Assembly (NCBI GenBank): GCA_017999915.1
Contig: JAGNKX010000015.1
Coordinates: forward strand, 1-64,000
Source: Spirochaetota bacterium
GTDB taxonomy: Bacteria > Spirochaetota > UBA4802 > UBA5550
DNA length: 64,000 bases
Direction of reading: 5' to 3'
Of this stretch, positions 36,319-39,879 are shown piece after piece. The notes under the pieces were generated by a model. The model did no database searches. It was not told the DNA's origin and was given only the letters and a program-made list of their open reading frames with translations. A program made the translations under genes and the position numbers. Positions within the stretch are counted from its first letter, which is position 1; each line of letters starts with the position of its first letter.

Positions 36319-37230
36319 ATGGAGAGCACCTATTTCGCATTGGCTTCCAAAGCAAATTTCAACAAGGCCCTCCGGCACTTCTACAAAGTGACCGAAGTAG
36401 TCGATGAAATTGAGACCAATAGAAACCTTGCTGACGTAATAAACAGCGGACTCGATGCCAATGAGATCACGGAAGATCAGATATTGCCGATCGTTGGTTC
36501 CGTAATACGGGATAAATACGGCTACACCTATGATTCATACAACATAGTCGAACCGGTCACCGAGTTTCAGAAAATAGCGGATGAAACGGCGAAATGGACT
36601 GCCCTTGACATCGTGTGCGTCTATTACAACCCCGGTGGAAAGACTTTCCTGATCAACCCGAAGAACCCCGAAAACTGGGAGCGCGTCAGGGAGCTTCACA
36701 ATGATCAGCTGATGGTTATATATGTTAAATTCCTAAAAGAGGAAAATAAGAAGATCGAAGAGGCTGCGATCAACACGTTTGAGGAAATGCTGTCCGGAAA
36801 GGATGTTTTCATCAACAAGGCCTTCATCGACCAGACCGTTGTCCAGGCAAAGCCCGTCGTCAAAAAAGAGAAGAGGGCCGAAGAGCCGGGGAAGGGGGTT
36901 GCAAATATCACGCCGAAATACGCGGTGGAAGTCTCCAATGAGCTCTTCCATAACGGCAACGTCGAGGCGTGGAAAAAGATCGTCGAGAGCTACACCACGT
37001 CCTTCCCTAGCCTCAAGGTATACATATTCCATGGAAGCGAGCTGGTCAATGACATAAACTCCCTGTTCAAGTGGGGTAAGGTGAAACATGGCGATACCAT
37101 ATTCTTCCAGGTCGCCGGGGAAAACATCAAGGGAGTGTCAAAGCTCCAGAAATACCTCTACGAGGGAGCCAGCCCGAGGTTCGAGCAGTTCCTGAAGATC
37201 GGCGTGGGACAGGTGCTGAGGCTTTTCTAA
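36319..37230 (+). CDS. Unknown protein in a pair with the PPDK paralogue
   Basis: 303 residues, soluble, no signal. AAGGGAG lies 8 nt before the ATG. It begins with a helical region (KANFNKALRHFYKVTEVVDE, ITEDQILPIVGSVIRDKYGY), then a mixed alpha/beta region (LDIVCVYYNPGGKTFLINP), a Lys/Glu linker with paired lysines at about 180-200 (KKEKRAEEPGKG), and a C-terminal domain with LKVYIFHGSELV and HGDTIFFQVAGENIKGVSKL. I recognise no family. The next gene starts 39 bases later and shares a terminator, so the two probably work together. Confidence 0.7.
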   Translation: MESTYFALASKANFNKALRHFYKVTEVVDEIETNRNLADVINSGLDANEITEDQILPIVGSVIRDKYGYTYDSYNIVEPVTEFQKIADETAKWTALDIVCVYYNPGGKTFLINPKNPENWERVRELHNDQLMVIYVKFLKEENKKIEEAAINTFEEMLSGKDVFINKAFIDQTVVQAKPVVKKEKRAEEPGKGVANITPKYAVEVSNELFHNGNVEAWKKIVESYTTSFPSLKVYIFHGSELVNDINSLFKWGKVKHGDTIFFQVAGENIKGVSKLQKYLYEGASPRFEQFLKIGVGQVLRLF

Positions 37231-37269
37231 GGCTTGTGAAATCATCTACAAATTCAGAGGAGATTCAAA

Positions 37270-39879
37270 ATGGAAAATATAGTATACTTTAATAAAAACC
37301 TCAAAGAAGTCGATGAAAAGGTCCGGCAGCGGCTCGGCATTCGCGGCAGACGGGCCGTTGATCTTGCCAAGATGGGCCTCCCGATCGCGCCCGGCTTCAT
37401 CATCGATTCGGTCCTCACGCAGAAATTGCCCCAGATCAACGTGAAAGAGATTTTGAGCACCTACATCGGCCAGCTTGAAAAAGACATGAAAAAGAAATAC
37501 GGCGATGCAGACAAGCCCCTCATGCTGAAGGCGGTCCTCAGCTCGGACCTGAACGTGCCCCATTTCCCATCGATACACAACATAGGTATGAACGCCACGA
37601 CGGTGGAGGCCTTCGGCAAATTCACCGGGAAGGAGTTTGCCTATGGCGAATACCTGTTCCTCCTCAGGAATATGGCCCGGAAGATTTACGAAATCGACGA
37701 AAAGGAGCTGAAGCTGATAGAGGGGAAGATCTCGAAAAAGGCAAGCCTCGATGAGACCAAAAAGGCCATCGAAGCCTACCAGAAGCTCTTCGGCGACAAG
37801 TTCAGCGAAGACGTGTACGATCAGCTGAGCCTTATCATCAAGGGCGCCTCGTCGAGGTACTGCGACTCCGCCATTGACGTCGACAATTCCCTGTCGATCA
37901 TGGTGCAGGTGATGGTGTACGGGAACTGGGGGGACAACTCCTATGCCGGCAATTACTACACCAGGAACATCATCACCGGCGATCCGGAGATACAGGGAGA
38001 ATTCGGCCAGAGCGAATTTGACATCCAGGAAGGCAAGGCCAAGGAAATCAACAAGATAGAGAAAAAGCACTTCACGCATTTCACTGAAATCGCGCGTAAG
38101 ATCGAGGATAACTTCAAGGAGATCCGCGAGATAAAGTTCACCATTGAAGAGGGTGACTTCTGGCTGGTGGAGCAGAAGGAGGTCGACGATAAATCGACCC
38201 AGTCGCAGATCAAGGCGCTCCTTGACCTGACCAAGCGCAAAATAGTCTCAGATACCTATACGATTGAGCGGATCAAGCCGAACCAGCTCAACGAGCTCCT
38301 GCACCCCGTCATCGATCCGCGGTCGATCAAGGGGACGAAATTTATCAAGGGCGGCATTTCGGGATCCACCGGAGCCGCCATCGGCCGGGTATTCTTTTCG
38401 ACACCCAAGCTCCTGGAGGAGCATAAGAAGGCCATCATGAAAGGCGGCGATACCAAGCTCATCCTTGTCATGCCGGCTTCCTTCGCCGAGGACGTCAAGG
38501 CCATCGAGGTCGCCCAGGGCGTCATCACCTGCGAGGGCGGTTTTTCCTCCCACGCGCCGGTCGTGGCCCGAAGCCTCGGCAAGGTCGCCATGGTCCAGCC
38601 CGAGATGAAAATCAAGGGTAACAGCTTCACCCTGGGCGGGAAGACCGTCAATGAAGGCGATTACGTATCCATGAACGTTCCCTATTATGAGGCGCCGACC
38701 CTGTTCATGGGCAAGGTGGACCTGATCGAGCCGGACTGGAAGAGCAACGGTCTCTTCGAGTTCATGGAAATCGTTGAAAAGCAGATAGGCGCGTTCAACG
38801 TGCGCGCCAACGCGGACCAGCCCCGCGACGCCCTGGTAGCCAAGGACTTCATGGCAAAGGGGATCGGCCTCTGCCGCACCGAGCACATGTTCTTCAACGA
38901 GAAGCGGATCATGAAGTTCCGCGAAATGATCATAGCCGAAAACGAGGAGGAGCGCCGGAAGGTGCTGAAGGCGCTGCTTCCCATGCAGCGGTCCGACTTC
39001 TATGACCTCTTCAAGATCATGGAGGGCCAGCCGGTGACGATCCGCCTCCTGGACGCGCCGCTTCACGAGTTCCTGCCGCGCAACGAGGAGAGCATGAAGA
39101 TCTTTATCCAGTACATGCAGGGGCGGGAGAAGGGCATCAAGGGGGCCGACATCGAGGCCCGGTGCGAGGAGCTTGGCGAGATGAACCCGATGCTGGGACA
39201 CCGCGGCTGCCGTGTCGCCGTAACCTTCCCGGAAATATACGAGATGCAGTGCCGCGCCATTTTTGAGGCCGCCTGCATGCTGCGCAAGGAAGGCCACAAG
39301 GTCGAGCCCGAGATCATGATCCCCATAGTCATGAGCAAGGAAGAGATCAAGTTCATCAAGAACGGAAAGAAGATCGAGGGTAAAGAGGTCAAGGGGATAC
39401 GGGACATCAAGAACGAGGTAGTCGAAGAATACGGCATCGAGGACCTCGAGTACAAGGTCGGGACCATGATCGAGCTTCCCGCCGCCGCCCTGGGCGCCGG
39501 CGAGATCGCCCAGTACGCCGAGTTCTTCAGCTTCGGCACGAACGACCTTACCCAGACCACCTACGGCCTGTCGCGTGACGATTCCAACTCATTCTTCCCG
39601 AGCTATTCCCTCTTCGACCTGATGAAGTCCAATCTCTTCAAGTATCTCGGCGAAGAGGTCAAGGAGCTCATCGGGATAGCCGCCCTGCGGGGCAGGCTGT
39701 CGCGGCCTGACATCAAGCTGGGTCTCTGCGGCGAGCATGGCGCGGCTCCGGAAAACATCCAGTTCTGCATGGACGCCGGCCTGAACTACGTTTCCTGCTC
39801 GCCCTTCGCGATTCCGCTGGCGAAGCTGGGGATCGCCCAGATAAACATCAAGGCCGCCCAGGAAGAGGCCGCGGAATAG
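37270..39879 (+). CDS. PPDK/PEP-utilising paralogue with degenerate ATP-binding half
   Basis: 869 residues, the normal length of pyruvate phosphate dikinase. The swivelling domain keeps the phosphohistidine motif (EGGFSSHAPVVAR, His428). The C-terminal TIM barrel keeps all PEP/pyruvate residues I can place: Arg536 (GLCRTEHMFF), Arg592 (TIRLLDAPLHEFLP), Glu735 (GTMIEL), Asn758-Asp759 (FGTNDLTQ) and Cys843 (YVSCSPF). The N-terminal ATP-grasp half is altered: RGRRAVDLAKM replaces GGKGANLAEM, LKAVLSS replaces the VRSGA region, and WLVEQKEVD replaces LQTRNGKR. It may therefore use PEP but not ATP. GAGGAG precedes the ATG. It follows the 303-residue gene. Confidence 0.85.
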   Translation: MENIVYFNKNLKEVDEKVRQRLGIRGRRAVDLAKMGLPIAPGFIIDSVLTQKLPQINVKEILSTYIGQLEKDMKKKYGDADKPLMLKAVLSSDLNVPHFPSIHNIGMNATTVEAFGKFTGKEFAYGEYLFLLRNMARKIYEIDEKELKLIEGKISKKASLDETKKAIEAYQKLFGDKFSEDVYDQLSLIIKGASSRYCDSAIDVDNSLSIMVQVMVYGNWGDNSYAGNYYTRNIITGDPEIQGEFGQSEFDIQEGKAKEINKIEKKHFTHFTEIARKIEDNFKEIREIKFTIEEGDFWLVEQKEVDDKSTQSQIKALLDLTKRKIVSDTYTIERIKPNQLNELLHPVIDPRSIKGTKFIKGGISGSTGAAIGRVFFSTPKLLEEHKKAIMKGGDTKLILVMPASFAEDVKAIEVAQGVITCEGGFSSHAPVVARSLGKVAMVQPEMKIKGNSFTLGGKTVNEGDYVSMNVPYYEAPTLFMGKVDLIEPDWKSNGLFEFMEIVEKQIGAFNVRANADQPRDALVAKDFMAKGIGLCRTEHMFFNEKRIMKFREMIIAENEEERRKVLKALLPMQRSDFYDLFKIMEGQPVTIRLLDAPLHEFLPRNEESMKIFIQYMQGREKGIKGADIEARCEELGEMNPMLGHRGCRVAVTFPEIYEMQCRAIFEAACMLRKEGHKVEPEIMIPIVMSKEEIKFIKNGKKIEGKEVKGIRDIKNEVVEEYGIEDLEYKVGTMIELPAAALGAGEIAQYAEFFSFGTNDLTQTTYGLSRDDSNSFFPSYSLFDLMKSNLFKYLGEEVKELIGIAALRGRLSRPDIKLGLCGEHGAAPENIQFCMDAGLNYVSCSPFAIPLAKLGIAQINIKAAQEEAAE

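Follow-up and report, generated by a model that had tools for sequence, protein, structure and literature searches.

Spirochaetes that have CfpA filaments almost always carry two further genes, X303 and PPDKL, next to or near cfpA. PPDKL encodes a paralogue of pyruvate phosphate dikinase (PPDK, EC 2.7.9.1), and X303 encodes a 303-residue protein that matches no Pfam or NCBIfam family. All three genes lie in the stretch of DNA analysed here (the window), which is made up of positions 1 to 64,000 of the forward strand of contig JAGNKX010000015.1 (assembly GCA_017999915.1, from a Spirochaetota bacterium). Judged by its sequence, PPDKL is almost certainly a CfpA-linked, ATP-blind derivative of PPDK. 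It is tentatively proposed, at somewhat less than even chances, that PPDKL is a histidine phosphotransferase linked to the CfpA cytoskeleton and driven by phosphoenolpyruvate (PEP), and that X303 is its likely acceptor or adaptor.

In the window, cfpA (34064..36016; 650 amino acids; NF040882 cfpA_ASD, 885 bits against a cut-off of 500) is the gene immediately upstream of X303 (36319..37230). PPDKL (37270..39879; 869 amino acids) follows X303 after a gap of 39 nucleotides. These genes, and all other features given below for the window, are on the + strand. An initial annotation of the window had described X303 and PPDKL as a two-gene unit. Its open reading frames, spacing and shared strand are confirmed, and the pair is conserved across the phylum; the unit also takes in the upstream cfpA, which had been missed. 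The full unit is cfpA-X303-PPDKL.

Remodelling of the dikinase

PPDKL was examined in an alignment of 47 PPDKL proteins, 20 canonical spirochaete PPDKs and the PPDK of Clostridium symbiosum. Canonical residues are numbered as in the C. symbiosum enzyme; the numbering was checked by its landing on H455 and on all literature residues. The residues that we take to form the ATP site come from general knowledge and from PDB titles (for instance, those of the K22A and R337A mutants).

The PEP half of the protein is intact. In the window PPDKL, H455, R561, R617, E745, N768, D769 and C831 are retained as H428, R536, R592, E735, N758, D759 and C820, and all of them are present in 47 of 47 PPDKL proteins. 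The phosphohistidine H428 (38551..38553) is also kept throughout a 34-member set. The barrel that binds PEP and pyruvate, with its active-site residues, spans residues 494-869 (38749..39876; PF02896, 232 bits, and alignment).

The ATP-grasp half (residues 1-340, 37270..38289, from the alignment) has been remodelled. The ATP-site replacements in the window protein are K22 to R25, R92 to V89, G101 to P97, R135 to F130, D321 to E287, E323 to K289, Q335 to E301 and R337 to K303. Across the 47 PPDKL proteins, seven of these eight residues are kept at 0% and R337 in 47%. Four of them (K22, R92, E323 and Q335) are absent from every PPDKL. All 20 canonical spirochaete PPDKs, among them the one encoded elsewhere in the source genome, retain the ATP-site and PEP-site residues alike. 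The K22 position (R25, 37342..37344) is arginine in all PPDKL proteins, and the R92 position (V89) is V or I in all 47 aligned proteins and always V, I or L. The position of E323, a Mg-ligand, is R or K in 43 of 47, and that of Q335 (E301, 38170..38172) is E, D or N in 46 of 47. No shifted ATP-grasp motif was seen in the alignment.

Of the columns that are invariant in canonical PPDKs, PPDKL keeps 30% on the ATP-grasp side and 88% on the PEP side. Losses among the eight ATP-site residues are heavier than among invariant columns drawn at random from the ATP-grasp domain (P=0.02). The loss thus exceeds general drift, and it is clade-wide. New residues have also become fixed. K87, a new invariant lysine at canonical S90, lies beside V89 (37528..37536), and R286, a new invariant arginine at canonical Q320, lies close to K289 (38125..38136). 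Together with S91, residues R25, K87 and R286 are invariant even in remote PPDKL homologues, which implies that the old ATP half has acquired a new selected function and is not decaying at random.

The initial annotation had held that the ATP half was lost while the PEP half and the phosphohistidine were kept, and this holds for the whole set of 47. It had also listed Cys843 among the PEP/pyruvate residues. That residue is a different cysteine, in the sequence YVSCSPF; the equivalent of the catalytic C831 is Cys820. On the whole, the interpretation in the initial annotation finds partial support.

The predicted structure of PPDKL (pLDDT 86) has the three-domain PPDK fold and aligns over its full length to PPDK 2r82 (Z 46 over 822 residues). 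With 674 bits, the protein falls below the curated TIGR01828 cut-off of 843.45 bits. It does not qualify as Enzyme I of the phosphotransferase system (PTS) either, at 105.5 bits against a TIGR01417 cut-off of 341.7.

Several PPDKL genes depart from the common form. In three loci (L060, L062 and L065), the frames are longer (about 970 amino acids) and the first 160 residues have diverged. In the PPDKL of locus L063 (G044:C312), which is very divergent and comes from a draft genome with runs of N, the N-terminal half has decayed and the PEP motifs are recognisable. The complete genome that holds locus L113 (G287:C1:2157244-2160249) has its PPDKL in two overlapping frames, through either an error in sequencing or damage to the gene. 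The branching order that FastTree gave within PPDKL (support 0.345) was left out of account.

Conservation of the three-gene unit

Among 393 spirochaete genomes, CfpA is found in 137, X303 in 134 and PPDKL in 133. All three occur together in 128 of the 141 genomes that have any of them, and most of the exceptions are incomplete assemblies. The P-values for co-occurrence lie below 1e-87, uncorrected for phylogeny. At least eight families (f21, f24, f40, f43, f45, f48, f50 and f56) include genomes with and without the genes, and in them the three switch together. This is a partial answer to the lack of a phylogenetic correction.

Gene order was compared in 80 named GTDB loci that were found with X303 alone. 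PPDKL lies downstream of X303 on the same strand in 78 of them, which are all the loci where this can be tested; the remaining two are short contigs (5,150 and 5,508 bases) without PPDKL. The two genes are less than 320 nucleotides apart in 73 of the 78 loci, and other genes are inserted in five. The full order cfpA-X303-PPDKL is found at 73 of the 80 loci, five of which have inserted genes. The initial annotation had asked whether the pair is conserved in other spirochaetes or regularly separated. It is conserved in all 78 testable named loci. Separation is seen in genomes of family f32, where cfpA, X303 and PPDKL all lie apart. In two genomes (G343 and G212), cfpA is distant and X303 and PPDKL are still paired. 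A rare exception of another kind is a divergent CfpA-like protein (L075, G303:C1; an 813-residue frame, 348 bits) in a genome with neither X303 nor PPDKL.

The partner protein

X303 begins with a helical part that carries a near-invariant histidine, H20 (36376..36378; His in 111 of 116 sequences). The middle domain (residues 69-162, 36523..36804) is followed by a variable linker. In the predicted model, the middle domain has an HPr-like fold with no histidine at the position of HPr His15. It matches HPr with Z 9.3 and 1.8 A over 79 of 83 residues; the first unrelated fold scores Z 6.7. HPr is the usual partner of Enzyme I, and an HPr-like fold predicted beside an Enzyme I-like protein is no more than suggestive.

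The C-terminal domain (residues 195-303, 36901..37227; NELFHNGNVEAWK ... LFKWGKVKHG) is the most conserved, with a predicted b-a-b-b-a-b-a order. Its invariant H211 (36949..36951; 115 of 116) stands at the start of the first helix. The order of strands and helices, with this histidine before the first helix, would fit HPr, but other folds score best against the domain and its sequence lends HPr no support. H20 and H211 are only candidate phosphate acceptors, and H211 has no higher standing because the structural match to HPr lies at residues 69-162. For the same reason, the motif NELFHNGN in this domain is no longer taken for the HPr His15 site. Sequence matches in the PDB (RxLR effector, folliculin) were weak and were set aside, and ubiquitin-like Pfam matches were also weak.

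Canonical enzymes and the treponemes

A canonical PPDK, whose presence elsewhere in the genome the initial annotation had left as a question, was found in the source genome (G000:C1:536104-538797, 1419 bits). Pyruvate kinase, HPr and a separate PTS Enzyme I are encoded there too, which makes PPDKL an additional protein. Most other PPDKL carriers likewise have a canonical PPDK or pyruvate kinase. In one genome (G339:C1:268761-271428), the canonical PPDK looks broken, in two pieces with internal stops, and PPDKL is intact.

Genome G056 can be identified as Treponema pallidum, since codons A869 and P655 of its PPDKL, at nucleotides 810772 and 811414, are the published positions in TP0746 (PMC10013896). 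TP0746, which is annotated and treated as the glycolytic PPDK of this species (PMC10013896, PMC8525777), is thus a member of the PPDKL family. Genome G165 is very likely T. denticola ATCC 35405; its cfpA, X303 and PPDKL lie at 861855-867830, consistent with TDE0842-0844. In both species, the ATP site of PPDKL is erased and the PEP site is intact.

No canonical PPDK was found in T. pallidum, where the best TIGR01828 match has 608.5 bits, and the genome gave no pyruvate kinase match in a search that detected 14 of 14 controls. T. pallidum does have PEPCK (544 bits) and OadA (940 bits), an alternative route from PEP through oxaloacetate to pyruvate. The loss of the ATP site calls into question the annotation of TP0746 as a glycolytic PPDK, and the PEP-to-pyruvate step in T. 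pallidum therefore becomes a directly testable question.

Proposed mechanism

PPDKL would be a PPDK-derived protein that is dedicated to CfpA filaments and no longer forms ATP. PEP would phosphorylate His428 within the intact C-terminal half, and from there the swivel domain would carry the phosphate to the remodelled, ATP-blind N-terminal half. The phosphate would then pass to a protein acceptor, most likely X303 (at H211 or H20). Through the state of the relay, the filament system would sense the level of PEP and pyruvate.

The seven PEP-site residues and His428, intact in 47 spirochaete PPDKL proteins, suggest that catalysis, and not only structure, has been conserved. Phosphorylation of His428 by PEP, the role of X303 as acceptor and the effect on filaments are put forward as a possibility that falls a little short of an even chance. 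This reading draws on the intact PEP site, the new residues fixed in the ATP half, the linkage and co-occurrence with cfpA and X303, the HPr-like domain of X303, the joint presence of TDE0844 and CfpA among major envelope-fraction proteins, the co-repression of TDE0842-0844 and the precedent of VadK (both treated below). A wider idea is held more cautiously still: PPDK would have been rebuilt as an Enzyme I-like protein which, through a partner with an HPr fold, links CfpA filaments in spirochaetes at large to the state of glycolysis, giving a bacterial cytoskeleton its own PEP-driven phosphotransferase. If true, it would place the annotated PPDK of T. pallidum in the CfpA system, leaving the species without a pyruvate kinase- or PPDK-type enzyme that makes ATP in converting PEP to pyruvate.

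Alternative explanations

Several observations weigh against a phosphate relay to X303. In X303, no conserved histidine is found in columns of about 74-93, which secondary structure indicates as the His15 region. The HPr family PF00381 matches none of 31 X303 C-terminal domains, nor the X303 loci of the sampled genomes. Profile comparison with HPr by hhalign gives the C-terminal domain a probability of 1.2% and residues 62-165 one of 5.3%, where reversed controls give 0.2-0.3%. Homology of X303 to HPr by sequence is not claimed, given the silence of PF00381 and hhalign probabilities of 1-5%. Two contigs labelled SAR324 (L182 and L209) carry the order cfpA-X303-PPDKL-cfpA, and their PPDKL proteins lack R561, R617 and D769 while keeping R25, K87, S91, R286 and H428. 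PEP chemistry is therefore not universal in the PPDKL family. If these contigs are real, the remodelled N-terminal half may hold the core or ancestral job, and PEP chemistry may have been added or lost. CfpA may also occur outside spirochaetes in two copies, going by the contig label alone. The divergent draft genome G044 has the reverse pattern, with the N-terminal half decayed and the PEP half recognisable in sequence.

The SAR324-labelled proteins, which lose PEP residues and keep the gene module and the new N-terminal residues, favour a structural role. PPDKL and X303 could bridge or anchor the CfpA ribbon, built from an enzyme scaffold whose PEP site serves ligand-dependent shape or regulation. 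Among the 16 major T. denticola envelope-fraction proteins, each above about 1%, TDE0844 forms band 1 and CfpA forms band 3, and the authors attribute the presence of CfpA to membrane anchoring (PMC3931704). At this abundance, TDE0844 could be a structural component. A tomography paper, cited by title in PMC3398590, reports bridging and anchoring components that it leaves unnamed. X303 and PPDKL are candidates for the identity of these parts. Co-fractionation is, however, not proof of binding, and the conservation of the PEP site described above points to catalysis. A structural role is the main rival explanation and is held to be a little less likely than the relay.

PPDKL could instead form pyruvate, with a non-adenine acceptor such as phosphate, pyrophosphate or polyphosphate bound in the remodelled pocket or with hydrolysis of the phosphohistidine. 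This pocket (R25, K87, R286 and K289) is basic and invariant. In T. pallidum, PPDKL would be the only dikinase-type route and could be needed for pyruvate, which also counts against the relay. The alternative through PEPCK and OadA and the canonical enzymes of most other carriers weigh against a pyruvate-forming enzyme, which would also leave the linkage to cfpA and X303 unexplained. This explanation is improbable. Far less probable still is that PPDKL is an ordinary PPDK, as it is annotated in T. pallidum and T. denticola, whose ATP site has diverged and still works. The full-length PPDK architecture and TIGR01828 matches of 600-700 bits speak for such an enzyme, but these scores are under the curated cut-off, and the replacement of K22, R92, E323 and Q335 includes both treponemes. 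Many PPDKL genomes also carry a separate canonical PPDK. In VadK (Rv1127c), a mycobacterial histidine kinase derived from PPDK, the mutation R106K, predicted by its authors to disrupt ATP binding, abolishes function (PMC13400623).

Relation to known systems

PPDKL shares with PPDK (TIGR01828; C. symbiosum 1dik/1kbl) the three-domain architecture, the phosphohistidine, the PEP/pyruvate site and about 35% identity. It differs in its erased ATP/Pi site, its new conserved set of residues, its score below the family cut-off and its link to cfpA. As in PTS Enzyme I and HPr, transfer from PEP to a phosphohistidine would be expected, and the neighbouring X303 has a predicted HPr fold. Unlike Enzyme I, PPDKL keeps a PPDK-type N-terminal half, and the HPr-like domain of X303 lacks His15 and is joined by two further domains.

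VadK provides a mirror image (PMC13400623). Both proteins have lost one PPDK half; VadK keeps the ATP and His domains without the PEP domain, and has become regulatory. Taken together, VadK and PPDKL suggest that the loss of either half can turn PPDK into a regulator.

In the cytoplasmic filament system of treponemes, cfpA adjoins the pair and co-occurs with it almost one to one. A cfpA mutant shows chromosome condensation and filamentation (PMC3398590), and TDE0842-0844 are co-repressed in T. denticola co-culture (PMC3914990). No description of X303 or PPDKL as filament parts was found in the literature searched. With them, CfpA filaments gain two conserved candidate accessory proteins.

Other features of the locus

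X303 and PPDKL may have their own transcript in this locus, because terminator-like stem-loops follow cfpA (36045..36074, 13 pairs, at the gene boundary) and PPDKL (39907..39935, 12 pairs), and a weak promoter-like site precedes X303 (36159..36188, 9/12 matches). All three are consensus matches only; terminator-like stems number 10 against 11.3 in shuffled sequences, and consensus signals are no commoner than in shuffled sequence.

Two further members of the cluster, here and in related lineages, encode a DUF6602 protein (31484..32350; PF20247, 31 bits) and a von Willebrand A protein (32745..33854; PF00092, 37 bits). These genes (31484-33854) directly precede cfpA in the window, and about 20 related loci share this arrangement. 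Loci labelled Leptospiraceae, and others related to them, have the two between X303 and PPDKL, along with genes for a GAF-like protein and for an uncharacterised protein of 650-860 amino acids.

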